Source: Methylocella silvestris (lineage in GTDB: Bacteria; Pseudomonadota; Alphaproteobacteria; Rhizobiales; Beijerinckiaceae). From it: DNA of 64,000 bases. The notes beneath the pieces were generated by a model. It was not told where the DNA came from. It saw nothing but the letters and a program-made list of their open reading frames with translations, and ran no database searches. Position numbers and translations under genes: made by a program. Location of the stretch: contig NZ_PDZR01000001.1 in assembly GCF_002891535.1 (NCBI RefSeq), positions 496,001 through 560,000 on the forward strand, in the 5' to 3' direction. Below, one piece after another: positions 21,692-38,460 of this stretch (positions are counted from its first letter, which is position 1; each line of letters begins with the position of its first letter).

Positions 21692-22291
21692 TCAGAGATA
21701 GCCGGTCAGGAGGCCGACTCCGGCCAGCGCCATCAGGCCGCCGCTGGCCCGAAAGGCGAGGCGGGATGTTTGCGCGCCGATCCGGCCGACGCCGAGCCCG
21801 ATGCCGATGCCGGCGACATGAAGCAACGCCGTGGCCAGCATGAAGCCCAGCGCATAGTCGAGCCCGGATGCGTCAGCGGGCATTTCCGCGCCATGGGCGT
21901 GGCCGTGAAAAATTGCGAAAAAGCCGACAAGCGCCATCGCGGCGACGGTCGGCAAGCTCCATTGCAGGGCGACGGCAAGCCCCAGCACGATGACGGAGGC
22001 GGCGATGCCGATTTCGACGAAGGGCAACGCCACTCCGGCGAGGCCGAGCGCGCCGCCCACGCCCATCATCAGAACGAAGGCGGCAGGCGTCAGCCAAAGC
22101 GCGCGTCCGCCGAGATAGGCCGCGAACATGCCCACGGCGACCATCGCAAGGACATGGTCGAGGCCGCCGATCGGATGGGCGAACCCATGCATGAAGCCGT
22201 GCGTGTCGCCGATTCCGACATGGGCGTCTGCGCTGATTGGAAGTCCGGCGACGGCGAGCGCCAGAAGCGTCAATCTGAGAGTCGATTTCAT
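21692..22291 (-). CDS. hupE: HupE/UreJ-type nickel transporter
   Basis: The 199-residue integral membrane protein has a cleavable signal (MKSTLRLTLLALAVAGLPISADA). Immediately after it comes the HupE nickel motif HVGIGDTHGFMHGFAHPIGGLDH, then about six helices and a second His cluster, FAIFHGHAHGAEMP. HupE takes up nickel for the hydrogenase active site. The ATG at 22291 has GGAGGACAGGACAC in front; an open extension to 22351 is unlikely. It is the last gene of the hydrogenase island and follows hypB. Confidence 0.93.
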   Translation of the reverse strand: MKSTLRLTLLALAVAGLPISADAHVGIGDTHGFMHGFAHPIGGLDHVLAMVAVGMFAAYLGGRALWLTPAAFVLMMGVGGALGLAGVALPFVEIGIAASVIVLGLAVALQWSLPTVAAMALVGFFAIFHGHAHGAEMPADASGLDYALGFMLATALLHVAGIGIGLGVGRIGAQTSRLAFRASGGLMALAGVGLLTGYL

Positions 22292-22347
22292 GTGTCCTGT
22301 CCTCCAAAAATCCTGACGCCCGACCGGGAGCCGGGCTCCGCGAGCAT

Positions 22348-23307
22348 TCAAAGCCGAGACTGAAGCATGCGATGATCGAGCCAGTCGTACCAGTCGTCCA
22401 TTCCTTCGCCGGTCCTGGCCGAAACGCGCAGCGCCAGAATGGCCGGATTGACCTTCATCGCATTGCCGATCGCCGCGCCGACGTCGAAATCGACATGAGG
22501 CAGGAGATCGACCTTGTTGACGATCATGATCTCGGCAGCTTTGAACATATGCGGATATTTCAGCGGCTTGTCGTCGCCTTCGGTGACCGAGAGGATCACC
22601 ACCTTGGCGCTTTCGCCAAGATCGAACAGCGCCGGGCAGACAAGATTGCCGACATTCTCGATCATCACCATCGAGCCGAAGGGCGGCTTCAGTTCGGCGA
22701 GACCCTTTTCAACCATGTCGGCTTCGAGGTGGCAGCCGGCGCCGGTGTTAATCTGAACGGCGGCGGCGCCCGCCGCGCGGATGCGCTCGCCGTCTCTCGA
22801 GGTCGCCTGATCGCCCTCGATGACCGAGATCGGAATCTTGTTTTTGAGGTCGCGGATGGTGCGCTCCAAGAGCGTCGTCTTGCCCGCGCCCGGCGAGGAG
22901 ACAAGGTTTAGCGCCAGAATTTCGCGGCCCAGAAACCAGCCCCGATTTTTGGCGGCGAGCGCATCGTTCTTGGCGAGGATCTGTGCTTCGAGTTCGATCA
23001 CCGAAGAGCGGGCATGGCCGTCGTCATGGTCATGACGGTGATCATGTTGATGATCGTGGTCGCCATGCTCATGATCGTGCAGGTGATCGTGATCGTGCAG
23101 GTGATCATGATCGTGATGGCGCGCATGGACATGGTCGGCGCCATGGTCGTGTGGATGCGCATGAGGAGGGCTATGCTCATGCTGGCGCGCTGAGCCATCG
23201 TCTTGCGTGTGCGAACGGACATGGCCGTCCAATGTCGTTTCCGCCCCGGTCTCGAGATTGAGGATCGTCGCTTGCGTCTTCGCGCCGCAGCCGCAGGTTC
23301 CGCACAT
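22348..23307 (-). CDS. hypB: hydrogenase nickel-insertion GTPase HypB
   Basis: The 319-residue protein begins with the nickel-binding motif MCGTCGCG. A very His-rich stretch follows at residues ~43-98 (about 25 His, nickel storage type). The GTPase domain has SSPGAGKTTLLE (P-loop), VIEGDQATSRD, GNLVCPALFDLGE and NKVDLLPHV. HypB delivers nickel with HypA to the large subunit of [NiFe] hydrogenase. ATG 23307 overlaps the hypA stop (TGATG). The His-rich part is encoded by internal short DNA repeats near 23060-23120. Confidence 0.96.
   Translation of the reverse strand: MCGTCGCGAKTQATILNLETGAETTLDGHVRSHTQDDGSARQHEHSPPHAHPHDHGADHVHARHHDHDHLHDHDHLHDHEHGDHDHQHDHRHDHDDGHARSSVIELEAQILAKNDALAAKNRGWFLGREILALNLVSSPGAGKTTLLERTIRDLKNKIPISVIEGDQATSRDGERIRAAGAAAVQINTGAGCHLEADMVEKGLAELKPPFGSMVMIENVGNLVCPALFDLGESAKVVILSVTEGDDKPLKYPHMFKAAEIMIVNKVDLLPHVDFDVGAAIGNAMKVNPAILALRVSARTGEGMDDWYDWLDHRMLQSRL
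23060..23125 (-). repeat. internal DNA repeats coding the HypB His-rich stretch
   Basis: Units close to gtgatcatgatcgtgcagg recur head-to-tail and encode HDHDHL/HDHDHLHDHEH. Such degenerate histidine codon repeats can expand or contract by slippage, changing HypB nickel storage without breaking the frame. Confidence 0.6.
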
Positions 23308-23645
23308 CAGGCCGCCTCCTCGATTTCCATGTTTCTTATCTTCAACTCCTCGCCGGCAAGCCGCTCGATCGAGCGCGAGCCGCAGCCGCAGGCCTCGAAA
23401 AGCGTCCTTGTTTCGAAGGCTTCGCCGCACGATCGGCAGCGGCCGCGGCCTTCGATGCTGTTGATGTCGAGTTTCGCGCCGTCGAGCAGCGTTCCCCTCG
23501 CGACGATGTCGAAGCAGAACAGGATCGCCTCGGGCGTGACGCCAGAAAGGCGGCCGACGTCCAGCGTGACGCGCGTGACGCGGCGGCCCTTCGCCGCCTC
23601 TTCGACGATCGAGACGATGTTGCGGGTGATGCCGAGTTCATGCAT
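23307..23645 (-). CDS. hypA: hydrogenase nickel metallochaperone HypA
   Basis: The 112-residue protein starts with the nickel-binding MHELGITRNIV. Its zinc site is made of two Cys pairs, CRSCGEAFE and ACGCGS. It partners HypB in nickel insertion. It overlaps hypB by one base and lies 19 bases after hypE. The second Cys pair is C-x-C rather than C-x2-C, a minor variation. Confidence 0.94.
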   Translation of the reverse strand: MHELGITRNIVSIVEEAAKGRRVTRVTLDVGRLSGVTPEAILFCFDIVARGTLLDGAKLDINSIEGRGRCRSCGEAFETRTLFEACGCGSRSIERLAGEELKIRNMEIEEAA

Positions 23646-23664
23646 GGGCGTTTCCCTGAGCCCC

Positions 23665-24732
23665 TCAACAGATTCGCGGCAGCTGTTCGCCGACCAGCAT
23701 GTCGACGATGCGCCGCCCGCCGAACACGGTCTGCATGGTCACGCGCCCCGGCTCGCCGCAGCCGGCATAGCCGATCAGCGCGGAGCCCTCGCCGAGCGGA
23801 TGCGCGCCGAGCGCAGCCAGCGCCGCGGCGATCTCGTCTCGCGGCACGGCGATGACGATCTTGCCCTCATTGGCGAGATAGAGCGGGTCGAGGCCAAGGA
23901 TTTCGCAGAAACCGCGCACCTCCTCGCGCAGCGGCGTCAGCGCTTCCTCGATCTCGATCGAGACGCCGGAGGCGTCGGCGATTTCATTGAGCACCGTGGC
24001 GAGGCCGCCGCGCGTCGCGTCGCGGATGCAGCGCGCGCCCGGCGCGGCGCGCAGCAGCGCCGCGATCAAGCCGTGCAGCGCGGCGCAGTCGCTTTCGATC
24101 GCTGTCTCCAGCGCGAGGTCGCCGCGCGCGCAGAGGATGGCGGCGCCATGGTCGCCGAGCAGGCCATTGACCAATATTCCGTCGCCGGGCCTCACCCGAT
24201 CGACGCCAAGGTCGACGCCGGGCGCGATCACGCCAATGCCGGTCGTGGTGATGAAGATCTTGTCGCAGGCGCCGCGCTGCACCACCTTGGTGTCGCCGGT
24301 GACGATGGCGACGCCCGCCTCACGCGCCGCATACGCCATGGATTGCGCGATGCGACGCAGCAGCTCCACCTCAGTGCCTTCCTCGATGACCACGGCGCAG
24401 GAGAGATAGAGAGGCTTCGCGCCGCCGACGGCAAGATCGTTGATCGTGCCGCAGACCGCGAGCTTGCCGATGTCGCCGCCCGGGAAGAACAGCGGATCGA
24501 CGACAAAACTGTCGGTGGTGAAAGCCAGCCGGTCGCCATGCGCGGCGAGGCCCGCAAGGTCGAACCGCGCCTGATCTTCAAGAGTTTGCGGCGCCGCATT
24601 GGCGAAGGCGCTGATGAAGACGTCGTCGATCAGATCCTTCATCGCCTTGCCGCCGCCGCCGTGCGCGAGCGTCACCATCGGCACGAAAACGCGCCCCAGC
24701 GCGCGCGGCGGCGGGATGGGATGCATGTTCAT
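23665..24732 (-). CDS. hypE: carbamoyl-dehydratase HypE
   Basis: The 355-residue protein is the PurM/ThiL-like enzyme that dehydrates its own thiocarbamoylated C-terminal Cys to thiocyanate for the cyanide ligands of the [NiFe] site. It ends in PRIC, the required C-terminal Cys. It has LAHGGGGKAMKDLI, TDSFVVDPLFFPGGDIGKLA, VTGDTKVV and ATRGGLATVLNE motifs. Its ATG at 24732 overlaps the hypD stop as ATGA. Confidence 0.96.
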   Translation of the reverse strand: MNMHPIPPPRALGRVFVPMVTLAHGGGGKAMKDLIDDVFISAFANAAPQTLEDQARFDLAGLAAHGDRLAFTTDSFVVDPLFFPGGDIGKLAVCGTINDLAVGGAKPLYLSCAVVIEEGTEVELLRRIAQSMAYAAREAGVAIVTGDTKVVQRGACDKIFITTTGIGVIAPGVDLGVDRVRPGDGILVNGLLGDHGAAILCARGDLALETAIESDCAALHGLIAALLRAAPGARCIRDATRGGLATVLNEIADASGVSIEIEEALTPLREEVRGFCEILGLDPLYLANEGKIVIAVPRDEIAAALAALGAHPLGEGSALIGYAGCGEPGRVTMQTVFGGRRIVDMLVGEQLPRIC

Positions 24733-25886
24733 GATGCTGTGGCCAGTCGCTGCGTTGCCTCATTGGACGCATGGCGCCTGACGCCGCCATATTGGTAATA
24801 GGCGGCGCATGCGCCCTCGGACGACACCATCAGCGCGCCAAGCGGCGTCTCCGGCGTGCAGGCGGCGCCGAAGACCCTGCACTGCCATGGCTTGATGACG
24901 CCCTTCAGCACATCGCCGCATTGGCACGATTTGGGATCGGCGATCTTGACATTGGGAATGGCGAATTTCCGCTCGGCGTCGAAACGGGCATATTCGTCGC
25001 GCATTTTCACGCCGGAATGATCGATGGAGCCGAGGCCGCGCCATTCGAAGAATTCGCGCAGCTCGTAGACTTTGCCGACGGCGTTCAGCGCCGCCGCATT
25101 GCCCGCCGCGGGAGCGACGCGCGCATATTGATTCTCGATCTCGGCGCGGCCCTCCTTGATCTGCTTCAGCACCATCCAGATCGATTGCAGCACGTCGAGC
25201 GGCTCGAAGCCGGCGATCACCATCGGCCGCTTGTAGACGTCGGCGATGAATTGATAGGGCGCGGCGCCGATCACCATCGAGACGTGGCCGGGTCCGAGGA
25301 AGCCGTCGAGGTTGAGCTCGGGGCTATCGAGAATCGCCTTCATCGTCGGCACGATCGTGATGTGGTTGCAGAACACCGAAAAATTCTCGACGCCGTCGGC
25401 TTCCGCCTGCAACACCGTCAGCGCGGTGGACGGCATGGTGGTCTCGAAGCCGAGGCCGAAGAAGACCACTTCACGTCCAGGGTTTTTGCGGGCGAGGGCG
25501 AGCGCGTCCAGCGGCGAATACACCATGCGCACATCGGCGCCTCCCGCCTTGGCCTGTTGCAGGCTTTTCTTCGAGCCGGGCACGCGCATGGCGTCGCCGA
25601 AAGTGGCGAAGATGACCTCGGACCGCTCGGCGATGGACACGCAGTCGTCGACGCGGCCCATCGGCAGGACGCAGACGGGGCAGCCCGGCCCATGCACCAG
25701 TTCGATGGCGCCGGGCAGCATGCCTTCGAGCCCATAGCGGAAGATCGAATGAGTATGTCCGCCACAGACTTCCATAATGTTGATCGGCCGTGTTTTGGCG
25801 ATCTCTATCGTGGCGGCGAGCCTGTCGATTTCCAGGATTAAAGTCGCCGCTTTCTCGCGGTCGCGGAATTCGTCGGCGTATTTCAT
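24729..25886 (-). CDS. hypD: Fe(CN)2CO assembly scaffold HypD
   Basis: The 385-residue iron-sulfur protein holds the iron while cyanide and carbon monoxide are attached. It shows MEVCGGHTHSIFRYGLE, LVHGPGCPVCVLPMG and GFETTMP. The C-terminal FeS cysteines lie in DPKSCQCGDVLKG and CRVFGAACTPETPLGALMVSSEGACAAYYQYG. Length is usual. It sits between hypC and hypE, as in most hyp operons. Confidence 0.96.
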   Translation of the reverse strand: MKYADEFRDREKAATLILEIDRLAATIEIAKTRPINIMEVCGGHTHSIFRYGLEGMLPGAIELVHGPGCPVCVLPMGRVDDCVSIAERSEVIFATFGDAMRVPGSKKSLQQAKAGGADVRMVYSPLDALALARKNPGREVVFFGLGFETTMPSTALTVLQAEADGVENFSVFCNHITIVPTMKAILDSPELNLDGFLGPGHVSMVIGAAPYQFIADVYKRPMVIAGFEPLDVLQSIWMVLKQIKEGRAEIENQYARVAPAAGNAAALNAVGKVYELREFFEWRGLGSIDHSGVKMRDEYARFDAERKFAIPNVKIADPKSCQCGDVLKGVIKPWQCRVFGAACTPETPLGALMVSSEGACAAYYQYGGVRRHASNEATQRLATAS

Positions 25887-25951
25887 TGCGCTGGTCCCTT
25901 CTGCGCGGCGAAGCCGCGCGCGGCGGCGAGCAATGTGTTCGCGCGGCTTTG

Positions 25952-26233
25952 CTATTGCGCGGCTGAGAGCCGCATGGCCTCGATCTCGGATTGCGCCTCG
26001 CCAAGCTCGGCGAGGATTTTCAGCGTTTCCGCCGCTTCACGCTCGTCGATGCGGCTCATGGCGAAGCCGACATGCACGAGCACCCAATCGCCGACGCAAT
26101 CATCGATCGAATGGTTGTCGTCGACGATACAGGCGATGTTGATCTGGCGTCTGACGCCGCTGACGTCGACCGTCGCCAGTTTCTTCAAAGGATCGTCGAT
26201 CTTGACGATCCGTCCGGGAATGCCAAGGCACAT
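25952..26233 (-). CDS. hypC: hydrogenase maturation chaperone HypC
   Basis: The 93-residue protein begins MCLGIPGRIVKI, whose Cys2 becomes the N-terminus and binds the iron precursor with HypD. DWVLVHVGFAMSRIDEREA is the usual second motif. It chaperones the large subunit during metal insertion. It lies three bases after the hypF stop and 65 bases before hypD. Confidence 0.95.
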   Translation of the reverse strand: MCLGIPGRIVKIDDPLKKLATVDVSGVRRQINIACIVDDNHSIDDCVGDWVLVHVGFAMSRIDEREAAETLKILAELGEAQSEIEAMRLSAAQ

Positions 26234-26236
26234 GGG

Positions 26237-28666
26237 TCAGCTCGCTTTCCGCCGGCCAGCGCCGGCGTCGATGAGATGGGCGCAAGCGATGGCCGCCTGG
26301 CCGAGCGCGACGCCGCCGTCATTGGCGGGCGTGCGGGAGTGGGTCAGAACCTCGAAATCCAGCGCCTGAAGACGGCTAACAACCTGCTCGAACAGCACTT
26401 TGTTTTGGAAGCAGCCGCCCGACAGCGCGACGGTGTCGAAGCGCGACGGGCAGTCGTCAGCGTCGCCGCGGCGGGCCAGTTTCAGCGCCATTGCGGCGAT
26501 CGATCTGGCGAGGCCCTTGTGGAAGCGCGCCGCGATGACTGGCGCTGGCGTCCTCAAGATGAGGTCGCCAAGCAACGCGCTCCACATGGCGAGCGGCTCG
26601 ATATAGGCCAGGGCGGAGCTTTTGAGGGTGGGGATCGATAGCGGATAGGCGAGCTCTTCGCCTTCCTCAGCCAGCGTCTTCGACGACACGATTGCCTCGA
26701 GGCGCGCCGCCGCTTCGCCCTCATAGGCCTGGCGGTCGAAGCACAGGCCGACGCTGGCTGCGACCGCGTCGAACAGGCGCCCGCAAGATGACGCCTTGGG
26801 AGAATTGACCGAGGCCTTCAGCATCGCTTCGACCGTCGCCAGCGGCTTGGCCGACAGCGCCGCAAAGACGTCGAGCTTGGCAAAATTCATGGCGAACGCC
26901 GACCAGCCCATCTCCGCCATGAGATGGGCGTAGAGATTGCGCCATGGCTCGCGCGCCGCCTGCGCTCCTCCCGGCATGGCGACCGGCTTGAAGGTTCCCA
27001 CCCGTTCGAAGCCGCGGTAGTCGGCCAGCAAAAACTCGCCGCCCCAGATCGCCCCGTCCGCGCCATAGCCGAGGCCGTCGAGCACGATGGCGAGCACAGG
27101 CGCCGCGTCAAGCGGGCGGCCATTCTCCGCAAGGCAGGCGGCGGCGTGGGCGTGATGGTGCTGGATCTCGATCAGCGGAAGTCCGTCGCTTTTTGCTGTC
27201 GTCCGCGCGAGTTTGGACGAGAGATAGTCAGGATGCAGATCGGCGGCGAGACCCGTCGGCCGGTGGTCGAAAAGCTCCCGGTAGAGCGTGAGGTTTTTGC
27301 GGTAGTCGTCATAGGTCAAAGCGTCTTCGAGATCGCCCTGATGCTGTGAAAGAACGGCGCGTCCGTCCTTGACAAGGCAGAAGGTTGATTTCAATTCGCC
27401 GCCATAGGCGAGGATCTCGGGCGACCCCTCGAAACCGTCCGGCAAGGCGATCGAAGCTGGCGCATAGCCGCGGGCGCGACGCAGCACGCGGAGCTTGCCG
27501 CCCATGCGGCGCACGACGGAATCGTCGATGCGATTGGCAATCTCGCGGTTGTGGATCAGCGCATAGGAGGCGATGGTGGAAAGCTTCTGCACGGCCTCCG
27601 TATCGCCTGTGACCTGCGGCTCATCGGAGAGATTGCCGCTCGTCATGACGACCGGCCGCGTCATGCGGCGAAGCAACAGGAGATGCAGCGGCGTCGACGG
27701 CAGCATGAAGCCGAGCGTGGCAAGACCCGGCGCGATTTGATCGGGCAGTCTTTCCCTTCCGTCGGCGGCGAGCAGCACGATCGGCGCTTCTCGGCTCGCC
27801 AGCGCGGCTGCTTCATCATCGCCGACTGTCGCGTAGCGACGGATGACCTCAAGGTCGCGCGCCATCAGCGCAAAGGGCTTCCTGTCACGCCCCTTGCGTT
27901 GGCGCAGCGTTGCGATCGCCTGGGCGTTGGTTGCGTCGCAGGCGAGCTGGTAGCCGCCGAGCGCCTTGATCGCGACAATCTCGCCTTTCTGGATGAGGCT
28001 TAGCGCTGCGTCGACATCATCGAGCATCGAATGCTGCTCGAACGAAAAGGCGCGGCCATCGAAGCGGATCAGCTTCGCCCGCGGTCCGCAGACATGGCAG
28101 GCGGTCGCCTCGGCGTGGAAGCGCCGGTCGGAGGGATCGCGATATTCGGCGCCGCAGGCCTCGCACAAGGGGAAGGGCGCCATGGCAGTCGTGGCGCGAT
28201 CATAGGGAACGCTGCGGACGATGCTGAGGCGCGGCCCGCAATGCGTGCAATTGGTAAAGGGATAGCGGAAACGGCGGACGAAGGGATCGAAAATTTCCGC
28301 CGCGCAGGCCACGCAAATCGCGGCGTCAGGCGAGACCTCCGTGCGTGCGCCGCCGCACCCGCTTTGCAAGATTACGAACCCCGGCCTGACGTCGCCATGA
28401 TAGTCGCGTATGTCGATGGAGGCGATTTCGGCGAGCGGCGGCGGCGCGGCGCGCATATCATCGATCAGCGCGGAGATTTGCGCCGCCGCGCCCCGCGCCC
28501 GGATCAGCACGCCTTCCCCGTCGTTGAGCGTCTCGCCATCGAGACCGATGGCGTGCGCGATGCGCCAGATCGCCGGCCGCAAGCCGACGCCCTGCACGCG
28601 GCCGCGCACCCTGATCTCCACCGTCTGGATCGGCTCGGCGAAGGGCGTCCGCAGCGGCGTGTTCAT
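26237..28666 (-). CDS. hypF: carbamoyltransferase HypF
   Basis: The 809-residue protein makes the carbamoyl group for the cyanide ligands. Domains run in order: acylphosphatase (~residues 10-95, VRGRVQGVGLRPAIWR); two Cys4 zinc fingers (~110-205, CVACAAEIFDP, NCTHCGPR, CEACGAEY, CHVCGPR); YrdC-like (~210-400, VAIKALGGYQLACDA); and Kae1/HSP70-like (~420-809, EIQHHHAHAAACLAENG, VLDGLGYGADG). Its start overlaps the NHL gene stop (ATGA). Length is normal. Confidence 0.96.
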   Translation of the reverse strand: MNTPLRTPFAEPIQTVEIRVRGRVQGVGLRPAIWRIAHAIGLDGETLNDGEGVLIRARGAAAQISALIDDMRAAPPPLAEIASIDIRDYHGDVRPGFVILQSGCGGARTEVSPDAAICVACAAEIFDPFVRRFRYPFTNCTHCGPRLSIVRSVPYDRATTAMAPFPLCEACGAEYRDPSDRRFHAEATACHVCGPRAKLIRFDGRAFSFEQHSMLDDVDAALSLIQKGEIVAIKALGGYQLACDATNAQAIATLRQRKGRDRKPFALMARDLEVIRRYATVGDDEAAALASREAPIVLLAADGRERLPDQIAPGLATLGFMLPSTPLHLLLLRRMTRPVVMTSGNLSDEPQVTGDTEAVQKLSTIASYALIHNREIANRIDDSVVRRMGGKLRVLRRARGYAPASIALPDGFEGSPEILAYGGELKSTFCLVKDGRAVLSQHQGDLEDALTYDDYRKNLTLYRELFDHRPTGLAADLHPDYLSSKLARTTAKSDGLPLIEIQHHHAHAAACLAENGRPLDAAPVLAIVLDGLGYGADGAIWGGEFLLADYRGFERVGTFKPVAMPGGAQAAREPWRNLYAHLMAEMGWSAFAMNFAKLDVFAALSAKPLATVEAMLKASVNSPKASSCGRLFDAVAASVGLCFDRQAYEGEAAARLEAIVSSKTLAEEGEELAYPLSIPTLKSSALAYIEPLAMWSALLGDLILRTPAPVIAARFHKGLARSIAAMALKLARRGDADDCPSRFDTVALSGGCFQNKVLFEQVVSRLQALDFEVLTHSRTPANDGGVALGQAAIACAHLIDAGAGRRKAS

Positions 28667-29862
28667 GGCGCCGTCTCCCAGAGCAGCACGCGATTGTTGC
28701 CGGTGTCGGCGACGGCCAGCGTGCCCCCGCGCGCGGCGAGCGCGAAGGGCCAGCAGATGCTGTCGCGCGCGGCGAAGCGCCAGCGATTGTCGCCTTCGTC
28801 GGAAAAGCCGGGCTGCCCCGCTAATCCCGCGGCTGCGGCGTCCATCTTAAGGGCGCCAAGCGGATAGGCGAGGAGCCGCGAATTGGCGGTGTCGGCGCAA
28901 TAAAGGGCGCCATCGTTGACAACAAGCCCGTAGGGCATGTTGAGCGCGCGATCATTTGGAATATAGCCGGCGCGATTGCGATCTATGGTCTCGAATGTCT
29001 GCTGCCCGACCACGAAACTGCATGGCGCACCGTCGGCGTTGGGCATCGCATTCCAGACCATGATGCGGTTGTTGCCGGCGTCGGCGACGAGGATCTGGCC
29101 ATTCGCTGCGGCGATGCTGTGCGGCCAGCGCATGCCGACCGCCCCGCCGGCGCCGGACGCGTTGTCGTCGCGAGTCGTCGTATTTGTCTGGCCGAGCACA
29201 AGATCGGCCGGCTGGCCATTGCGTTCCGGCAGGGCGTTCCACACCAGCACCCGGCGATTGCCGGTGTCGGCGACGAACAGGCGGCCATCCGCCAGGGTGA
29301 CGCCATAGCACCAGTTCAGCGTGTCGGCGGCAGCGTCAGGCCGGCCGCGATTGGCGAGGCCGCCGGAGAAGTCGGCTTGACCCAGCACGAGATCGGCGGG
29401 CTGGTTCGAGCGCTCGGGCAGGGCGCGCCAGATCAGCACGCGATGATTCCAGGCGTCGGCAAGCACGAGCGTCTCTCCGTCGGTCGAAAGGCCGGTGGGC
29501 ATGTTCAGCGTTGCCGCGCCTACGTCCCCGCGCGCGTTGCGTCCCTCGCTGAAGAAATCGGATTGGCCGATCAGAAAATCGGCGGGCGCATTGTCGTCTT
29601 CCGGCGCATTGCGCCAGATCATCAATCGGTGGTGGCCGGTATCGGCGACGAACAATGGCCCATCAGCGGGCGTGAGGCAGAGGCCGCGCGGTCCGAACAG
29701 GGTGCTCGGCGTGGGCGCGACCTCGATCGGCAGGCCGTCGGGGCGCACGTAGTCGCCAAGGACCACGCGCGCGCCTGCCGGATCGAGCATGGGCGCCGGC
29801 CGGCCAGCAGGCGGCTGCTGCGGGTTGCGGCGATAGTCGGGCGCGAGCGAGAGGTGGGTCAT
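28663..29862 (-). CDS. NHL-repeat protein of the hydrogenase island
   Basis: The 399-residue protein contains at least five NHL/six-bladed propeller repeats with the signature LFVADTGHHRLMIW, LVLADAWNHRVLIW, LFVADTGNRRVLVW, ILVADAGNNRIMVW and LAVADTGNNRVLLW. No signal peptide was seen, so it is probably cytoplasmic. NHL proteins with this composition are often found in group 1h hydrogenase loci, where their job is unknown; propellers usually mediate protein contacts. ATG 29862 gives an ATGA overlap with the previous gene and is preferred over the longer open frame to 29943. Confidence 0.85.
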   Translation of the reverse strand: MTHLSLAPDYRRNPQQPPAGRPAPMLDPAGARVVLGDYVRPDGLPIEVAPTPSTLFGPRGLCLTPADGPLFVADTGHHRLMIWRNAPEDDNAPADFLIGQSDFFSEGRNARGDVGAATLNMPTGLSTDGETLVLADAWNHRVLIWRALPERSNQPADLVLGQADFSGGLANRGRPDAAADTLNWCYGVTLADGRLFVADTGNRRVLVWNALPERNGQPADLVLGQTNTTTRDDNASGAGGAVGMRWPHSIAAANGQILVADAGNNRIMVWNAMPNADGAPCSFVVGQQTFETIDRNRAGYIPNDRALNMPYGLVVNDGALYCADTANSRLLAYPLGALKMDAAAAGLAGQPGFSDEGDNRWRFAARDSICWPFALAARGGTLAVADTGNNRVLLWETAP

Positions 29863-30954: not shown

Positions 30955-30962
30955 GTGGCGCC

Positions 30963-31224: not shown

Positions 31225-32238
31225 TCACGATGCGGTCCTTTGCTGGCTGTCGGCGTCGCAGGTGGAGGCAAGCGACAGCAGCTCGCGGCCGATCTGATCG
31301 TAGGCCTCTCCGACGATGCGCGCCTTTTCCATTTCGCCGCCGCGGCTGAAAATTGCCCGGGCCTCGCGATAGCAATCCTGCGCCAGCATCATGTTGGCGC
31401 GGTTGCCGGCATCGGCTTTTTCGAGATCGTCAGGGAGGTTCCACAGGCAATTCGCCTTGTTGGCGATGGTGTTGGCGTATTCGAGCGGCATGGCATCGCG
31501 GGTGCGCACCTTCAGCGCTTCATCATAGGCGTCAAGCGCGCGCAGATTATTCTCAATCGTGTGGCTCGAAGACGCATATTGCAACGCATTGCCGAGATTG
31601 TTCTGCAGCATGGCGTATTCCGCCGGATGATCGATGATGTTGACGATCCGCAAGCCTTCCTCGAAGGCCTGCACGGCGAGCGCCTCGCGCATTTTGGCGC
31701 GGGAGTCGGTGAATGGCATCGACAGGAAGGCGGTCGCCAGATTGTTCTGCAGGATCGCGAACTCCTTGGGGAAGCGGATTTTGTCGAAGGTGCGGAGCGC
31801 GCGCTGATAAGCCGAAATCGCGTCGGTGATGCGCGCTTTGTGCAGGCTGGCGAGATTTTGGATGGCGACGCCGAGATTCATTTCGGCCTCGGCCAATTCC
31901 TCGGCGCGGCCCAAATCGATGAAATGAGGAATGGCCGTCTCGAAGGCCGCCCGGGCGGCGACGAGCGCCTCGGCGCCATCGCCCGGAGCGGCGAGCAGCG
32001 CGGTTCCTTTGCGCGCGGTGATGCGTGCGAAAAGCAGAGGCTCGCTCTTGGGAGCCAGCGCCAGCGCACGATCGTAAAGTTCAATCGCGGCGGCGATCTG
32101 TTGCGGTGTTTTGGGTCGCTGCTGGAGGCCCATCGCGATCTCCATCAGCATTTCGGCGCGTTCGGCCGGGCTTGCGGCGCCATCCTCGGCCGCAGCGAAA
32201 GCTGCTCGCAACTCATCGTCGATGCGATCGCCGTTCAA
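31225..32238 (-). CDS. TPR-repeat protein of the hydrogenase island
   Basis: The 337-residue, all-helical protein consists of tetratricopeptide-like repeats, for example AAIELYDRALALAPKSEP, DAISAYQRALRTFDKIRFP and ALQYASSSHTIENNLRALDAYDEALKV. The FAILQNNLATAFLSM and YAMLQNNLGNALQYA segments repeat. It has no signal peptide. TPR proteins act as assembly scaffolds, and one is regularly present in group 1h hydrogenase loci. Its precise role is unknown. Confidence 0.82.
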   Translation of the reverse strand: MNGDRIDDELRAAFAAAEDGAASPAERAEMLMEIAMGLQQRPKTPQQIAAAIELYDRALALAPKSEPLLFARITARKGTALLAAPGDGAEALVAARAAFETAIPHFIDLGRAEELAEAEMNLGVAIQNLASLHKARITDAISAYQRALRTFDKIRFPKEFAILQNNLATAFLSMPFTDSRAKMREALAVQAFEEGLRIVNIIDHPAEYAMLQNNLGNALQYASSSHTIENNLRALDAYDEALKVRTRDAMPLEYANTIANKANCLWNLPDDLEKADAGNRANMMLAQDCYREARAIFSRGGEMEKARIVGEAYDQIGRELLSLASTCDADSQQRTAS

Positions 32239-32339: not shown

Positions 32340-32660
32340 TTAGTTTACAGCAAACGCGCCCCTGACGATCAAGCCCGCTAGCGCCGCGTCCCAGTCCGCC
32401 GCGAACTCGCCCGCAAGGTGATCCTCAAATCCGTGCTCTTGAAAGAAATCTGGCGCGAAAACCACGCGGTCGCCGGCGCTGTTACGAAGCTTCAACAGAT
32501 AGCCGCCCGCTGCCGCATGGCGCACAGGCAGAATGAGCAGATCGTGGTCGCGGCGAAGCAGGATCACCGTCTCAAGGCCGGGGTAAAATTCCGCGCACAT
32601 CGCCGATGACAGATAGAGGCCGCCGCGCCTCAACTGCACAACGCCGGGCGGGTCGCTCAT
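32340..32660 (-). CDS. hypothetical protein of the hydrogenase island
   Basis: The 106-residue protein reads MSDPPGVVQLRRGGLYLSSA, then LETVILLRRDHDLLILPV and GGYLLKLRNSAGDRVVFAPDFFQEHG, predicted as a small beta-rich domain. No metal motif and no membrane helix are evident. Its ATG overlaps the stop of the maturation protease gene (ATGA), so translation is probably coupled. No function can be assigned beyond association with the hydrogenase. Confidence 0.75.
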   Translation of the reverse strand: MSDPPGVVQLRRGGLYLSSAMCAEFYPGLETVILLRRDHDLLILPVRHAAAGGYLLKLRNSAGDRVVFAPDFFQEHGFEDHLAGEFAADWDAALAGLIVRGAFAVN

Positions 32661-33133
32661 GTCTGATATTTCTCCGCGCGCGCGCCGATCAACGTCTCAA
32701 TACGTTGCGAGACCTTGTTGGCCGCGGCCGCAACCGCAGGCGACAAGCCGATCCCGAAACCAAGCTCTTGCGCCTCGATCAGAAAGACCGCGACGTCGTG
32801 CGGAAACGCGTCGCGGAAGATTTGCCGGCCGGCGTGAAGCGCTGCGTCCCAGCGAAAATCATGCAGGTTGAGGCCAGGGCTATAGGGCCGTTCGAGTTCA
32901 TACCCCGGAACCTCGTAAAGCGCGCCGGGCTCGCCGCCAGAATTCGCAGCGTCGATGATGATCAGGGCGGCGCATCCGCGCGCAGCGAACATGACCGCCA
33001 TGCCGTCTGTGCCGGCATCGAACAGTTTTACCCCGGCGCTTTCCAATCCACGCGCGCGCAGCGCATGAATGACCTCGGGGCCGACGCCGTCATCGCGCCG
33101 GTTGGCGTTGCCGCAGCCAATGACGGCGATCAT
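32657..33133 (-). CDS. hupD: hydrogenase maturation protease (HupD/HyaD type)
   Basis: The 158-residue endopeptidase starts MIAVIGCGNANRRDDGVG. Family proteases have GxGN...DDGxG here, with the nickel-binding acid in the DD pair. It also has LFDAGTDGM and IDAANSGGEPG, which hold further metal-binding acids. It should cut the C-terminal extension of the large subunit after nickel insertion, and such a 16-residue extension is present in the large subunit gene of this cluster. The start at 33133 is chosen over 33193 because the family motif begins at once. Confidence 0.9.
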   Translation of the reverse strand: MIAVIGCGNANRRDDGVGPEVIHALRARGLESAGVKLFDAGTDGMAVMFAARGCAALIIIDAANSGGEPGALYEVPGYELERPYSPGLNLHDFRWDAALHAGRQIFRDAFPHDVAVFLIEAQELGFGIGLSPAVAAAANKVSQRIETLIGARAEKYQT

Positions 33134-33143
33134 CGCACGACCC

Positions 33144-33467
33144 TCAGATCCGCCAGAGCCGGCACGACCATTGCGGCTCGACGGGTACGGCAAGCTCGGG
33201 AAGCTCGCAGAAATGGCGGTGGACGAGATAATACATGCAGGTCTCGCAAGCCTGCTCGAGACCGCCGTATTCGATGGGCTGGAGCGTGAAGCCTGAGATC
33301 GTCAGCTTTGCTTCGAGATCGTCCCCGGCGGCCGCGAGCCTGTTGATGATGTCGCGCGTCATCTCCTGTGTGTCGGCGCGCGGAAAAACCTCGGTCTCGA
33401 GCCCGCCCGCCAGCAGGGAGCGAATGCGCTCCAGGACTTCGACGTCCAATGTCGCAGCTTGACTCAT
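33144..33467 (-). CDS. Cys-rich hydrogenase-associated protein, paralogue 2
   Basis: The 107-residue protein has a helical N-terminal half and a conserved C-terminal module, CETCMYYLVHRHFCELP, then ELAVPVEPQWSCRLWRI. The spacing is C-x2-C-x9-C-x14-C with one or two His between. This is clearly homologous to the product of the preceding gene (33507-33821). The four cysteines could bind zinc or an FeS cluster. No named family was recognised. Confidence 0.8.
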   Translation of the reverse strand: MSQAATLDVEVLERIRSLLAGGLETEVFPRADTQEMTRDIINRLAAAGDDLEAKLTISGFTLQPIEYGGLEQACETCMYYLVHRHFCELPELAVPVEPQWSCRLWRI

Positions 33468-33506: not shown

Positions 33507-33821
33507 TCAGATTCGCCACAACCGGCACCACCAGTCCGCGTCGACCGGCACCGCAAGTTCGGGGAGGTCGCACCATTCCCGATGCACGAGATAATACATG
33601 CACTCCATGCAGCGCTGCTTGTCGGGGCCGTAAGGGTGATCGACAAAGCCGCTGATCACCAGCTTGGCCTCGATATTTTCCGGATCGAGCGCGCGCAGCT
33701 GATCCAGAATTGCCGCGAACTCCCTTTCCGTCTCCGGAAAGGGCTCGGTCTGCGTCTTCAACCCGTTCCGCATCAGGCCAGCTATTTTCTTGAGCTGAGC
33801 GCGTTGCTGCTCGCTATTCAT
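33507..33821 (-). CDS. Cys-rich hydrogenase-associated protein, paralogue 1
   Basis: The 104-residue protein shares with its neighbour the C-terminal module CMECMYYLVHREWCDLP and VPVDADWWCRLWRI and the preceding KLVISGF strand. The tandem pair evidently arose by duplication. It lies directly after the hydrogenase large subunit, the usual place for proteins that bind to or load it. ATG 33821 is preferred because the longer frame to 33983 would overlap the large subunit gene. Confidence 0.8.
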   Translation of the reverse strand: MNSEQQRAQLKKIAGLMRNGLKTQTEPFPETEREFAAILDQLRALDPENIEAKLVISGFVDHPYGPDKQRCMECMYYLVHREWCDLPELAVPVDADWWCRLWRI

Positions 33822-33910: not shown

Positions 33911-35509
33911 TCAAGCCGTTCTGAAACGCGCGAGCTCTTTTCCCGTTTTGGCGTCGTGGGCATGCACCGTGCAAACGAGGCACGAATCATAGGACCGGCA
34001 GACATGGCCGATCTCGACGGGATCGCTCGGATCGGCGATCGGCGCGCCGATCAGCGCCTCCTCCATCGGGCCGCGCCCGCCGTCGTCCGACCGTGGACCC
34101 ACGTTCCACGTCGTCGGGGCGATGATCTGATAATTCTTGATCTTGCCCCCTTCGATCTCGATCCAGTGGCAAAGCGCGCCGCGGATCGCTTCCGTCGCGC
34201 CCCAGCCGCGCCCGTCGCGCTCCGTCGGCTTGATATACCAGGGATCGTTCAGTCTGAATTCCTTCAGATAATATTCGGCGCGGCGGTACAGTTTCACGCA
34301 TTCATGCATGCGCGCGAAATGGCGAAGCATCACGCTCGCGCCGCCAAGTTTCTTGTACATATCGAGCACAAGCGGATCGTAATGCTGCCACGACTCGCCA
34401 TGCGGGCCGCCCGCGATCAATTGACGAGCGAGGGGGCCCGCCTCCAATCGGCCCGCCTGCTCATGGCGCACCGCCGTCGACCAGGAATATTTGCCTTCCA
34501 TGTCAACCGTATTCTTGCGGGTCGGGGTGGTTGTGCGGTCGAACGGATGTTTTCCGCTGGGTTCGTCGTACCAGGCGCGCATTGTGTCTTCGCGCGTGAA
34601 GGACTGATCCATCAATTGATGCGCGTCGGTCCTGGAGTCATAGACGCCGCTCTTCATGAACAAGGACGCGTTGCGGCCTTCGATGGTGGGCTTGTTGTAT
34701 TTGTCTTCGTGCGGCAGGTAGCCCCAGCTGACGAAGCGGCCGTGCCCCTGTCCGTATTTGTCGAGGCCAATATCCTCGCTCATGCGCCAGAACATGCCGA
34801 GATCGGAGTTGGCGTGTTCCGGACGCTCGTCGAGCCAAGCCTTGAAATCGTCAAGCGACTTGATCTCCTCGTAACGCTCCAGAGAACAGCCAAGCCATAT
34901 CGGCTCGATCCAATTGCGCCGGAAATGTTCGAGAATGCCCCAGGAGCGGGTCACGTCGGTAAGAGTCGGGGCGCACATCACGCCGCCGGGCACCATATAG
35001 CTCGAATGCGGCCATTGACCGCCAAGCAAGGCGTAGATTTCGACCGGACGACCGGAAATCGTCACGCCGATTTCGTAGTTGGTTCCGGTAAAGGGCGCCC
35101 AGCGCCGGACGGCTTCCTCATAAAATTTCGACTTCGCATAATTCTTGTTGGTGTAGTCGATCATGAAGAGCCCATAGTGGTGTCGCGGCAAGCTCTGTAT
35201 GCTTTCGACCACCTGGCCAAGGTTGCGCGCAAGGATGGCGTTGCGCGGCACGGTCGTTCCCCACGCCGTGTCAAGCGCCCAGGCCGCGCAGGTGAGATGC
35301 GAGGCGCCGCAAATGCCGCAGGCGCGCGGCGTGACGATCAGCCCGGCCTGCGGATCCTTGTTGCGCAGGATGACCTCAAAGCCGCGGAAGAGTTCGGCCT
35401 GGGTCCAGGCGTTGACGACGACGCCGTCCTGAACGTCGACGCGAACGTCGAGGTCGCCTTCGACGCGGCCAACCGGAGAGATATCGAGTGTCTGTACAGC
35501 GGCGGGCAT
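33911..35509 (-). CDS. hhyL: [NiFe] hydrogenase large subunit, group 1h type
   Basis: The 532-residue protein binds the NiFe(CN)2CO site and oxidises H2. The N-terminal cysteine motif is RACGICGASH (Cys64, Cys67, His71). The C-terminal motif is SYDSCLVCTVH (Cys510, Cys513, His516), followed by a 16-residue extension removed on maturation. DSC replaces the common DPC. The long YDSRTDAHQLMDQSF region and LAAGGP-like IAGGPHGESW are in place. Neighbours (NHL, TPR, NifU-Rieske) and the signal-less small subunit support group 1h, formerly group 5, the high-affinity type linked to use of atmospheric H2. ATG 35509 is chosen; TTG 35530 has no ribosome-binding site. Confidence 0.93.
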   Translation of the reverse strand: MPAAVQTLDISPVGRVEGDLDVRVDVQDGVVVNAWTQAELFRGFEVILRNKDPQAGLIVTPRACGICGASHLTCAAWALDTAWGTTVPRNAILARNLGQVVESIQSLPRHHYGLFMIDYTNKNYAKSKFYEEAVRRWAPFTGTNYEIGVTISGRPVEIYALLGGQWPHSSYMVPGGVMCAPTLTDVTRSWGILEHFRRNWIEPIWLGCSLERYEEIKSLDDFKAWLDERPEHANSDLGMFWRMSEDIGLDKYGQGHGRFVSWGYLPHEDKYNKPTIEGRNASLFMKSGVYDSRTDAHQLMDQSFTREDTMRAWYDEPSGKHPFDRTTTPTRKNTVDMEGKYSWSTAVRHEQAGRLEAGPLARQLIAGGPHGESWQHYDPLVLDMYKKLGGASVMLRHFARMHECVKLYRRAEYYLKEFRLNDPWYIKPTERDGRGWGATEAIRGALCHWIEIEGGKIKNYQIIAPTTWNVGPRSDDGGRGPMEEALIGAPIADPSDPVEIGHVCRSYDSCLVCTVHAHDAKTGKELARFRTA

Positions 35510-35569: not shown

Positions 35570-36532
35570 TCAGACGACGAAGATGTCTTCCTCGGCCCAA
35601 CGCGGCGAGGCGGCCTTGGCGGCTGCGGTCAGCTTGACATAGCCGGTCTTGTCGACGCCGCTCGGCATGTCCTTTGGCACGCCCATCACCGTCTGCGTCT
35701 TGAACACAGTGCCAGGCGCGAGTTCGAAGAAGGGGAACTCGGGCTCTGTGCAGCCAAGGCACGGCATGCCGGCGCGGGTTTTCGATGATTGCCGGTTCCA
35801 CAGGATGCGGTTGCACGGCGAATGAGTCATCGGCCCGCGGCAGCCGAGATCGTAGAAGAGGCAACCCTTGCGCTGGCCGAATTCGGTCGCCGACACCTTG
35901 TAGGCGAAATGCATGTTGCGCGTGCAGCCGGTCTGGGTGAACGAGGTAAAGAAGGTCTTGGGACGCTGAAATTCGTCGAGCGTCAGGTCGCCGCCGCGGC
36001 CGGTGGCGACCGCGACGACGATCTGCGTGATCCAGTCGGGATGCGCGGGGCAACCGGGGATGTTGATAACGGGCAGGCCGGCCTTGGACTTGTAGTCCTT
36101 GCCGAGAAAACCGCCATGGGCGCGCTTGAGAAACTGGAGTCCCTGGCTCTCCGACGGATTGGGCGCTGTCGCCGGAATGCCGCCCCATGTCGCGCAATCG
36201 CCGATCGCGACGGTAAAGCTCGCGACCTTGGCGAGGTCGGCGACCCAGTCCTTCATGGGCCGGCCGGCAAAACGGTTCCATTCGCCGGTCCCGTCCGGCG
36301 CGTTGACGACGGTCCCTTCAAATACAAAAATGTCGAGCGCTATTTCGCCCGACGTAAGCGCCCGCAGGAGTTTCTTCAGATTGTCGCCGAGCTCCATGCC
36401 GAGGGAAGGGTGCCACAGGACGTTGACGCCGAAATCCGTGACGAGGTCGCAGGCGCTTGGCTCCTCTGCGTTCAGGAACGACATCGTGTTGCCGGAACAG
36501 GCTCCGCCCTGGAGCCACAACAGATTGGCCAT
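35570..36532 (-). CDS. hhyS: [NiFe] hydrogenase small subunit, group 1h type
   Basis: The 320-residue FeS subunit has no Tat signal and no C-terminal membrane helix, unlike ordinary uptake hydrogenases. The N-terminus LLWLQGGACSGNTMSFLNA has one Cys where classical enzymes have C-x2-C. In group 1h enzymes an Asp completes the proximal 4Fe4S site. Other cluster ligands lie in IGDCATWGG, NIPGCPAHPDW, GCTRN, KGCLFYDLGCRGPMTHSPCN and MPCLGCTEPEFP. GGGAGGAGGA precedes the ATG. A sigma-54 promoter lies about 60 bp upstream. Confidence 0.94.
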   Translation of the reverse strand: MANLLWLQGGACSGNTMSFLNAEEPSACDLVTDFGVNVLWHPSLGMELGDNLKKLLRALTSGEIALDIFVFEGTVVNAPDGTGEWNRFAGRPMKDWVADLAKVASFTVAIGDCATWGGIPATAPNPSESQGLQFLKRAHGGFLGKDYKSKAGLPVINIPGCPAHPDWITQIVVAVATGRGGDLTLDEFQRPKTFFTSFTQTGCTRNMHFAYKVSATEFGQRKGCLFYDLGCRGPMTHSPCNRILWNRQSSKTRAGMPCLGCTEPEFPFFELAPGTVFKTQTVMGVPKDMPSGVDKTGYVKLTAAAKAASPRWAEEDIFVV

Positions 36533-36593
36533 GAAGTCCTCCTCCCGATGGGCGCCGCAATTCTTGTGTGCGGCGCGCTTTGGAAGCCAGGAC

Positions 36594-36608
36594 GCAATCG
36601 TGGCGCCA
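36594..36608 (-). promoter_or_regulatory. sigma-54 promoter of the hydrogenase structural operon
   Basis: On the minus strand TGGCGC-N5-TTGC matches the -24/-12 consensus with the correct GG-GC spacing. Transcription would start about 12 bases downstream (near 36582), leaving a ~50-base leader before hhyS. The activator encoded at 37012-38460 is the natural candidate. Confidence 0.78.
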
Positions 36609-36759
36609 TCTTCTGATGACAGGAAACTTCTATTGTTTTACAATGATTTGCTCAAATGTGGAGATGCTGCGCCGCAATATTACTGTCGCGTCTTTGCGTA
36701 TACTTTGTATGCAGGTGAAAAGAAAGTTTCGGGCTCGATTTGGCTGGCCTGTTGCGCGC

Positions 36760-37002
36760 CTAGCCGTGGCGATTTCCGCATGCCGGGCAAGTCACTTCGA
36801 GAAGATAGCCGTACCAGACGCCGCGGCAGCGGCTGCACCAATGGCCGGTCGCCTGTTGCTCCGGAACGCCGAGGATCTTCGCCATCGCGCCGAGGCCGAG
36901 AAATTTCGTCGGCTTGCCGGCGCCCGATGGCGATGTGCGCGACTGCGGGAAACGGAGCACGCTTGCGTCGGGGGTCGCCTTGGATTCGTCGCCGTCGCGC
37001 AT
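36760..37002 (-). CDS. small zinc-ribbon protein beside the hydrogenase regulator
   Basis: The 80-residue protein has a polar N-terminus and a C-terminal zinc-ribbon-like pair, HWCSRCRGVWYG and VTCPACGNRHG (two C-x2-C motifs about 14 residues apart). Its start lies nine bases after the regulator stop, suggesting coupled translation. Function is unknown; possibilities are a metal-responsive partner of the regulator or a rubredoxin-like protein. Confidence 0.68.
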   Translation of the reverse strand: MRDGDESKATPDASVLRFPQSRTSPSGAGKPTKFLGLGAMAKILGVPEQQATGHWCSRCRGVWYGYLLEVTCPACGNRHG

Positions 37003-37011
37003 CGCTTCAAC

Positions 37012-38460
37012 TCAACCGCTTGGAACAAGATTGTACCGCTTGATCTTATTGGCGAGGCCGACCCGAGACAAGCCGAGCTCGGTCGCGGCGCGGCTCTGGT
37101 TCCAGTGGTTGCGGGCGAGCGCGCGGCCGACGATCTGTTTCTCCAGGCTTTCGACCTGGTCCTTGAGCGTCACGCCCTCGGGCTGGAAGCCGCCGGCGGC
37201 GCCTGGCCGCTCACGCGGAGCCGCGGCCAGCAAGGCCGGCGACATGTTTCGGGTGGTGAGATATTCGCCGTCCCGGGCCAGCGCCACCATGCGCCGAATC
37301 TCGTTTTCCAGTTCGCGCACATTGCCGGGAAACTCGCCATTGCTTAATTTGTCGATGACGCTGGCGCTGACGCCGAGGATTTTCCGGCCGAGCGCGTCGG
37401 CGTGTTTGGCGGCGAAAAACTCGGCGAGCGGCGCAATGTCGATTGGCCTTGCGCGCAGAGGCGGAACTTCGAACTCGAAGCCCTTCAGCCGGAAATAAAG
37501 ATCCTGGCGGAATTCGCGGCGCTCGACCAGCGCCTTGAGCGGCCGGTTCGAGGCCGCAATGATGCGGACGTCGCAATGGAGCACCTTGTCGGAGCCGAGC
37601 GGCTTCACCTCTCCCTCCTGCAGGAACCGCAGCAGGCTGACCTGGAACGAGGGCGAGACCTCCGAAATCTCGTCGAGAAACACCGTGCCGCCATCGGCAG
37701 CCCGGAACAGGCCGAGCCGATCGGAAATAGCGCCGGTGAAAGCCCCGCGCTTATGCCCGAACAATTCCGATTGCAGCAGTTCATCCGGCATGCCGCCGCA
37801 ATTTTGCACCAGAAGCGGGCTCGCGCGGCGCAGTGAATTATAGTGGATTGCGCGCGCCAGCAATTCTTTTCCCGTGCCTGTCTCGCCCTGGATGAGGATG
37901 GGCAATTCGGTTCGCGCCGCTTGTCGCGCCAGATCACACATCTCGGCCATTTGTTCGCTGACATAGACGAGCTTCTCGAAGCGCTGGCTTTCCGGCCGGA
38001 ACAAAGCGGTCTTGCGCTCGGCGAACATCAATGCGCCGCCCGATATCTTGAACTCGCGCGACAGAATGCGGTGGCGGCGGGCGAGTTCGCGAGTCTCGAG
38101 CGCGCGCTCGACGACGAGGCCAAGCTGCGCGGCGTCGAGCGGCTTCAGCAGGAACTGAAAGATCGCCGCCTTCGCCAGCGCCTGCTCCGAAATCGATCCC
38201 GATTTCGGCGTTACGTAGACGCGGATGATGTCGGGGTGGGAGACGCGCAGGCCGGTGAGGAAATCGAGGCCGCCGCTTTCGTTGTCATTATCCTCGGCGA
38301 TGGCGAGATCGACGTGAATCGAGGACAGCGTCGTCAACGCTTCCGCGGGCGAGCCGGCGAGCACGACGCGATAGGCATAGCGCTCGCAGAGCACCTCGAG
38401 CGAGGACGCCCAGTCGCCGCCGGGCCGCGAAATGATGACGACTGTGCCGGGCTCATCCAT
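37012..38460 (-). CDS. HoxA-like sigma-54-dependent response regulator
   Basis: The 482-residue protein has a degenerate receiver domain (~1-120), a sigma-54 AAA+ domain (~160-390) and a C-terminal Fis-type HTH (HWNQSRAATELGLSRVGLANKIKRYN). The AAA+ part has Walker A GETGTGKE, an intact GAFTGA and Walker B GGTVFLDEIS. In the receiver, the position of the phosphorylated Asp reads AEDNDNES (Glu56 aligns with it) and the acidic pair of strand 1 is absent. It resembles HoxA/HupR regulators of uptake hydrogenases. It very likely activates the sigma-54 promoter at 36594-36608. GGAAGG lies nine bases before the ATG. Confidence 0.88.
   Translation of the reverse strand: MDEPGTVVIISRPGGDWASSLEVLCERYAYRVVLAGSPAEALTTLSSIHVDLAIAEDNDNESGGLDFLTGLRVSHPDIIRVYVTPKSGSISEQALAKAAIFQFLLKPLDAAQLGLVVERALETRELARRHRILSREFKISGGALMFAERKTALFRPESQRFEKLVYVSEQMAEMCDLARQAARTELPILIQGETGTGKELLARAIHYNSLRRASPLLVQNCGGMPDELLQSELFGHKRGAFTGAISDRLGLFRAADGGTVFLDEISEVSPSFQVSLLRFLQEGEVKPLGSDKVLHCDVRIIAASNRPLKALVERREFRQDLYFRLKGFEFEVPPLRARPIDIAPLAEFFAAKHADALGRKILGVSASVIDKLSNGEFPGNVRELENEIRRMVALARDGEYLTTRNMSPALLAAAPRERPGAAGGFQPEGVTLKDQVESLEKQIVGRALARNHWNQSRAATELGLSRVGLANKIKRYNLVPSG

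Follow-up and report, generated by a model that had tools for sequence, protein, structure and literature searches.

A [NiFe] hydrogenase locus of Methylocella silvestris that very likely encodes a group 2a (Huc-type) uptake enzyme, with HiPIP-like and other small conserved accessory proteins

The DNA considered in this work (hereafter the window) is a stretch of 64,000 nucleotides from Methylocella silvestris, a member of the Beijerinckiaceae within the order Rhizobiales (assembly GCF_002891535.1, contig NZ_PDZR01000001.1, positions 496,001 to 560,000 of the forward strand). Based upon its open reading frames (ORFs) and upon profile searches against Pfam and NCBIfam, positions 21692-38460 of the window hold one long set of genes for a [NiFe] hydrogenase, in which all of the named genes lie on the minus strand and no frame breaks were seen. 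The evidence presented below makes it very likely that this locus is an operon for a group 2a (Huc-type) uptake hydrogenase of the proteobacterial/cyanobacterial branch. The enzyme itself is an ordinary one, and it is the surrounding operon that represents a proteobacterial variant of the Huc system. The features of the locus are the following:

21692..22351, minus strand: hupE, nickel-permease family (HupE_UreJ, 1.2e-56)
22348..23307, minus strand: hypB with a His-rich N-terminus (TIGR00073, 280 bits; start inferred, the ORF extends to 23430)
23307..23645, minus strand: hypA (PF01155, 1.2e-31)
23665..24732, minus strand: hypE (TIGR02124, 445 bits)
24729..25886, minus strand: hypD (TIGR00075, 510 bits)
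25952..26233, minus strand: hypC (TIGR00074, 84 bits)
26237..28666, minus strand: hypF (TIGR00143, 748 bits)
28663..29943, minus strand: NHL-repeat protein (NHL, 5.4e-30)
29859..30728, minus strand: hucE, NifU and Rieske protein (NifU 1.7e-22, Rieske 3.1e-18; CxH...CxxH motif)
30963..31175, minus strand: asr0689-like protein of 70 residues with two hydrophobic segments, a candidate membrane anchor (NCBIfam asr0689_fam 3.7e-10, below its cutoff)
31225..32238, minus strand: TPR-type accessory protein (no profile match of its own)
32340..32660, minus strand: 106-residue Huc-locus protein of unknown fold
32657..33193, minus strand: hydrogenase maturation protease (HycI 9.5e-16; TIGR00072 127.4 bits against a cutoff of 47.45)
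33144..33467, minus strand: HiPIP-like small protein B, a tandem paralogue of A (same family; two copies in this genome)
33507..33821, minus strand: HiPIP-like small protein A (CX2CX9CX14C; AlphaFold2 pLDDT 96.2)
33911..35509, minus strand: hucL, hydrogenase large subunit with a C-terminal extension after CLVCTVH (identified by its match to HucL, 7UUS, and its tree position)
35570..36532, minus strand: hucS, hydrogenase small subunit without a signal peptide (identified by its match to HucS, 7UUR)
36594..36608, minus strand: putative sigma-54 (-24/-12) promoter of the structural operon (one mismatch to TGGCACN5TTGC)
36760..37002, minus strand: 80-residue CxxC...CxxC protein, between the activator and hucS
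37012..38460, minus strand: HoxA-like sigma-54-dependent activator with a degenerate receiver domain (Sigma54_activat 1.2e-62)

The gene content listed in a first-pass annotation made from the sequence alone (HupE, HypB/A/E/D/C/F, NHL, NifU-Rieske, protease, large and small subunits and a sigma-54 activator) was borne out by the profile searches, in which the Pfam E-values lay far past chance (2e-155 for HypD, 7.2e-75 for HypF_C_2, 1.4e-75 for NiFeSe_Hases and 1.2e-56 for HupE_UreJ). The TPR gene of that list (31225-32238) is supported by homologues annotated as TPR at the same position in Thermus and Sulfobacillus, although the gene itself had no match in either Pfam or NCBIfam at E <= 0.001. 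Five small conserved genes (30963-31175, 32340-32660, 33144-33467, 33507-33821, and 36760-37002) were absent from the list. The description of the locus as an island found no backing in its composition, as the GC content is 63.8% within the locus and 62.95% in the remaining window. A recent foreign island was ruled out by GC and GC3 values similar to those of the surroundings and the lack of tRNA or Rfam matches; ARAGORN reported zero tRNA genes in the whole window.

Among the enzymes of solved structure, both subunits are closest to the Huc hydrogenase of Mycobacterium smegmatis, with scores of 626 bits for HucL (7UUS) and 528 bits for HucS (7UUR), in comparison to 124 bits (large subunit) and 119 bits (small subunit) for the enzyme of Cupriavidus necator (5AA5). 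Huc is a member of group 2a, whereas the O2-insensitive C. necator enzyme belongs to group 1h (PMC10017518). A maximum-likelihood tree was constructed for 36 large subunits, including 28 of 86 group 2a loci, where the group labels of the references reflect identity to named enzymes rather than HydDB assignments. In this tree, the HucL of the window branched among the 28 group 2a references, while the four 1h references (C. necator, Methylocystis parvus, M. intracellulare, and Streptomyces) formed a separate clade with a support of 100/100. The first-pass annotation had assigned the locus to group 1h, and had proposed to give up this assignment if the large subunit grouped outside 1h in a hydrogenase phylogeny; in the tree it groups with the 2a (Huc) enzymes, and the assignment has to be abandoned. 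Comparison with plasmid records gave a similar picture, with HucL identities of 77.6-85.5% to Bradyrhizobium, Mesorhizobium, Sphingopyxis, Novosphingobium, Octadecabacter, and Roseovarius, of 54.6-57.1% to Thermus, Sulfobacillus, Runella, Hymenobacter, and Mycobacterium, and of at most 36.9% to the others.

The accessory genes agree with this placement. The window HucE matches the HucE of M. intracellulare over its full length with 145 bits, and the HhyE of the same species over its N-terminal part with 95 bits. A C-terminal Rieske motif distinguishes HucE from HhyE (PMC6883350), and this motif, expected for group 2a, is present. HhyE is marked by two C-terminal CxxC motifs; in the window protein a single CxxC was found, which lies in the NifU part, and its C-terminus is occupied by the Rieske motif. 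The small subunit starts directly at MANLLWLQGGACSGN, without a signal peptide. In the 4.28-Mb genome hucL is the sole [NiFe] large subunit found by PF00374, a model that does detect a 1h large subunit, and a 1h large-subunit query gave no match in this genome at E <= 1e-100. It was also observed that the window HucL branches with Mesorhizobium and Bradyrhizobium and not with the Beijerinckiaceae references Methylocapsa acidiphila and MO3_YZ.1. Because of this placement an older transfer is possible, and the placement hints at a separate acquisition of the hydrogenase within the family.

The comparisons that follow are based upon 87 sequences, consisting of 86 hydrogenase loci and the window; 80 of these loci are the best 80 of at least 433 relatives and they lean towards the window's own branch. 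Three HucS residues, K212, Y227, and Y298 (window numbering), correspond to those which contact menaquinone in Huc (residue roles from PMC10017518), and they are identical in 85/85, 85/85, and 86/86 of the small subunits covering them. Similarly, the Cys ligands and N15 of the proximal motif are conserved in every small subunit covering these positions (all of these counts are over the 86 small subunits, with no motif filter). The small subunits of Thermus and Sulfobacillus (L025 and L109), which are from HucM-bearing loci, have the sequence GGACNGN in place of the GGACSGN of the window and most others.

In M. smegmatis, the HucM protein is held to bring menaquinone to the enzyme (PMC10017518). 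In M. intracellulare, the neighbour of hucS encodes a DUF1641 protein that matches the HucM chain, and the Thermus and Sulfobacillus loci also contain a DUF1641 protein. However, no DUF1641/HucM protein was found in the genome from which the window derives, or in the 17 other genomes of the order that carry the enzyme (0/18 overall), and an iterated HucM search of the 87 sequences produced 3 matches only (M. intracellulare, Thermus, and Sulfobacillus), none of them proteobacterial. The proteobacterial loci examined must therefore reach the quinone in another way. As no HucM was found, and UbiG is present above its cutoff in the genome whereas no MenD was found above cutoff (by a search aimed at MenD rather than at the futalosine route to menaquinone), the most likely electron acceptor, judging from gene content, is ubiquinone. 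The solved Huc enzyme couples to menaquinone via HucM, and the coupling of its proteobacterial relatives thus represents a testable gap.

The HiPIP-like proteins A and B belong to a family of about 105 residues, in which the CX2CX9CX14C spacing is found in 49/49 aligned rows. Members of this family were detected in 66/87 sequences, 56 of which have two matches and 10 a single one; a single copy is found in some named loci (Methylocapsa acidiphila and MO3_YZ.1), and the Nitrospirales locus (L106) has two. In a survey of 397 genomes of the order, in which up to 12 candidates were scored per genome, this family was present in 18, which are exactly the 18 with a group 2a HucL (at least two matches in each), and it was absent from the other 379. 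The co-inheritance with the enzyme is perfect in the sampled order, and this family is the obvious candidate for another way to the quinone. A resemblance to HiPIPs is suggested by one comparison of predicted structure: for the AlphaFold2 model of protein A, each of the 14 rows that VIA-align listed is a HiPIP (Z 4.5-5.5), from 31 chains preselected by Foldseek, although the Foldseek listing contains no HiPIP at E <= 10 and nothing at all at E <= 0.001. The Pfam HIPIP model (PF01355) did not match protein A at E <= 10 and matched 5/53 family members weakly (best 0.039). Likewise, the family profile retrieved no HiPIP chain from the PDB sequences at E <= 10, and a PDB sequence search with protein A was uninformative. 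A HiPIP encoded near hupLS in Acidithiobacillus ferrooxidans has been proposed to provide a link to ubiquinone (PMC7735108), and a candidate HiPIP-like relay in the window would extend this proposal.

Of the other small proteins, the asr0689-like family is present in 68/87 sequences, including those from cyanobacteria, and is missing from 19 loci, in some owing to a contig end. It was found in 0/3 of the HucM loci, but since only three HucM-bearing loci were compared, this mutual exclusion is based upon few cases. In Nostoc, asr0689 and asr0690 are described as proteins with two transmembrane segments in the hyp operon (PMC2408588). The 80-residue protein lies just upstream of hucS, the position that is occupied by HucM in the M. 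intracellulare locus; a HucM homologue was nevertheless ruled out, as it shows no match to the Huc stalk chain. Homologues with its motif are present in 52/87 sequences, the window included, and the four Cys residues are invariant in 40 rows. Its AlphaFold2 model (pLDDT 82.8) gave weak structural matches only (Z <= 2.7), on the basis of which the C-terminus is possibly zinc-ribbon-like at most, and Foldseek searches with the models of this protein and of HiPIP-like protein A led nowhere. The counts for the asr0689-like and 80-residue proteins are curated, as the iterated searches drifted onto wrong-frame ORFs. Those for the TPR-type protein (76/87 sequences) and the 106-residue protein (69/87, with some matches falling on the protease ORF) come from uncurated iterated searches; the latter protein is without a match in Pfam or NCBIfam.

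The activator shares 39% identity with HoxA of C. necator across 454 residues, and in its receiver part no Asp is conserved in an alignment of 54 relatives. The genome contains no second hydrogenase (PF00374) that could serve as an H2 sensor. The -24/-12-like site starts 76 bases before hucS. Similar sites (up to 2 mismatches, within 350 bases upstream of hucS) are present in 49/81 loci in comparison to 7.4 expected under a first-order Markov null (81 of the 86 loci were covered), although these do not amount to 81 independent trials because the loci are related. The site is located between -50 and -145 of hucS for 43 of these 49 loci, the other 6 having it further upstream. No site of this kind was found in the 12 cyanobacterial uptake-hydrogenase loci that were analysed.

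These observations can be combined into a mechanism. The activator would turn on the operon with no need for an H2 sensor of the HoxBC type, and the NiFe site would be built by HypA-F, HupE, and the protease, with the long His-rich N-terminal stretch of HypB suggesting nickel storage. H2 would be split by HucL, and the electrons would travel through HucS, by way of three [3Fe-4S]-type clusters, to a quinone site with conserved binding residues. Access to ubiquinone is probably aided by HucE, the asr0689-like membrane protein and the two HiPIP-like proteins. The cell would in this manner supply its respiration with electrons from H2, either present in trace amounts or of its own making, beside its growth on methane or organic compounds. 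The likely function, as read from the genes, is thus the oxidation of H2 into the ubiquinone pool. We further suggest, tentatively, that proteobacterial Huc is a distinct coupling variant, which lacks the HucM stalk. The electrons would here be carried from HucS to ubiquinone by cytosolic HiPIP-like proteins, most often two in tandem, together with HucE and a two-helix membrane protein of the asr0689 type, and the system would be under sigma-54 control without a hydrogenase acting as H2 sensor.

Several points weigh against this interpretation. The affinity of the hydrogenase for H2 cannot be read from its sequence, the [3Fe-4S] content is deduced from the ligand pattern of HucS, and the roles of the HiPIP-like, asr0689-like and 80-residue proteins are putative. 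Additionally, the number of sigma-54-like sites in the window as a whole is at chance level (6 as against 4.48 expected), and hence the case for the promoter rests upon position and conservation rather than upon this count.

The first-pass annotation had also predicted an energy gain from trace H2 in a likely methylotroph. The part concerning a 1h enzyme does not stand, but a complete, signal-less and sigma-54-associated uptake hydrogenase is retained, which by analogy with its group 2a relatives is plausibly capable of using trace H2. In other bacteria, growing cells oxidise H2 down to sub-atmospheric levels by means of group 2a enzymes (PMC7784904), and Sphingopyxis alaskensis takes H2 below atmospheric levels (PMC10305171). 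The guess of methylotrophy agrees with the diiron-monooxygenase genes of the genome, where a profile search gave four matches in two clusters, one of them to an MmoY-like subunit. The genome also contains RuBisCO.

A possible, though less likely, alternative is that the main role of the enzyme is the recycling of H2 from the cell's own nitrogenase, as for HupSL in N2-fixing cyanobacteria, with the activator tying it to nitrogen or redox status. A nifH gene above cutoff is present in the same genome, in which the hucL enzyme is the only hydrogenase found; the cyanobacterial HupL proteins, whose known role is recycling (PMC7784904), are 74-77% identical to HucL; and for M. silvestris itself such a role has been suggested in a review. 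However, nifH lies about 100 kb away from the locus, the related enzyme of S. alaskensis consumes ambient H2 (PMC10305171), and only 2/18 genomes of the order that carry the enzyme contain nifH, for which reason recycling cannot be the general role in this lineage. It is highly improbable that the locus encodes a non-respiratory or sensory (group 2b-like) enzyme or is a silent relic: although HoxA, to which the activator is related, adjoins the regulatory hydrogenase in C. necator, the large subunit branches in the 2a clade apart from HoxC (2b), its C-terminal extension and its own protease are retained, the named genes are visibly intact, and there is no histidine kinase among the profiled ORFs of the window. 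The former assignment to group 1h (former group 5, Hhy/AH; a high-affinity enzyme) is almost certainly wrong, as the traits in its favour (no signal peptide seen, a NifU-domain protein, and the hyp set) are common to both classes, whereas, in addition to the far lower score against the C. necator enzyme, the separate 1h clade and the HucE-type rather than HhyE-type Fe-S protein, the DUF5947 and DUF6084 genes seen in four 1h loci are not among the profile matches of the window ORFs. This change of class alters the expected physiology, because in published work enzymes of group 2a are associated with growth and those of group 1h with starvation (PMC10305171; PMC7784904).

With group 2a as the preferred assignment, the closest known systems include that of S. 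alaskensis RB2256, where HucL is 81% identical, the gene order from the activator to hypB is largely the same, and the HiPIP-like pair and the 80-residue protein are present. It differs in being plasmid-borne, in having one more gene between hypE and hypA and in that no hupE is annotated after hypB. Between hypC and hypD, the Bradyrhizobium and Sphingopyxis loci carry an SIS-domain gene, whereas the window has only a 65-bp gap (25887-25951). The M. smegmatis Huc (7UTD/7UUS) shares the HucSL class, the conserved HucS ligands and the quinone-site residues. The M. intracellulare plasmid locus, used as a stand-in for that of M. smegmatis, likewise has HucE, NHL, TPR-like and hyp genes, but its HucL is 54.6% identical, it carries the HucM (DUF1641) not found in the window, and no HiPIP-like pair or 80-residue protein was found in it. 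The cyanobacterial HupSL with the asr0689-alr0693 extended hyp operon resembles the window, besides the identity of the large subunit, in its asr0689-type, TPR, NifU, and NHL genes (PMC2408588); however, 0/14 cyanobacterial loci, several of which are truncated by contig ends, gave a match to the HiPIP-like family or to the activator. Three further loci from metagenome-assembled genomes titled as Cyanobacteria/Melainabacteria include one (L085) with a single HiPIP-like gene. For the group 2a Hup of A. ferrooxidans, a putative HiPIP encoded close to hupLS and a Rieske NifU protein have been put forward as the link to ubiquinone, but one HiPIP candidate is named there and the window has two tandem copies (PMC7735108). 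The C. necator AH (5AA5, group 1h) is likewise an uptake enzyme and is accompanied on pHG1 by hyp genes and a gene of the NifU family, yet both of its subunits are distant and its large subunit falls in a separate clade.

The group 2a enzyme of M. silvestris has already been reported in a review, and that of M. aurea in PMC12319191. The presence of the enzyme in M. silvestris is therefore already in print, and it is the electron-transfer partners of proteobacterial Huc that are a testable question. Beyond the A. ferrooxidans proposal, no description of the conserved HiPIP-like pair or of the absence of HucM in proteobacterial Huc loci was found in the literature covered by our search, from which subscription journals mostly fell outside. 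The metagenome-assembled genome MO3_YZ.1 contains intact hucS and hucL genes amid accessory genes (L039:8958-11593), contrary to the statement in PMC9145241 that no [NiFe] hydrogenase was identified in it.

Some other genes of the genome may be noted. BchL and BchX were found above their curated cutoffs (L116 and L117, genome contig C16), and the organism may, from these genes, be capable of bacteriochlorophyll synthesis. A heavy-metal P-type ATPase (window 38529-40124, TIGR01525 above cutoff), encoded immediately upstream of the activator and on its strand, has a possible link to metal handling. Positions 40105-49548 hold a nitrate assimilation cluster, in which NirB scored above cutoff and a NasC-like nitrate reductase below it, and the regulator, nitrate-binding-like, SUMT-like, and MFS-like ORFs were named by eye. 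Two further groups of ORFs were also named by eye from their translations: propionate-type ORFs (methylmalonyl-CoA mutase and carboxylase) near electron-transfer flavoprotein-like ORFs at 53451-63939, and an acetoin-dehydrogenase-type operon with its own sigma-54 activator-like ORF at 5046-11603.

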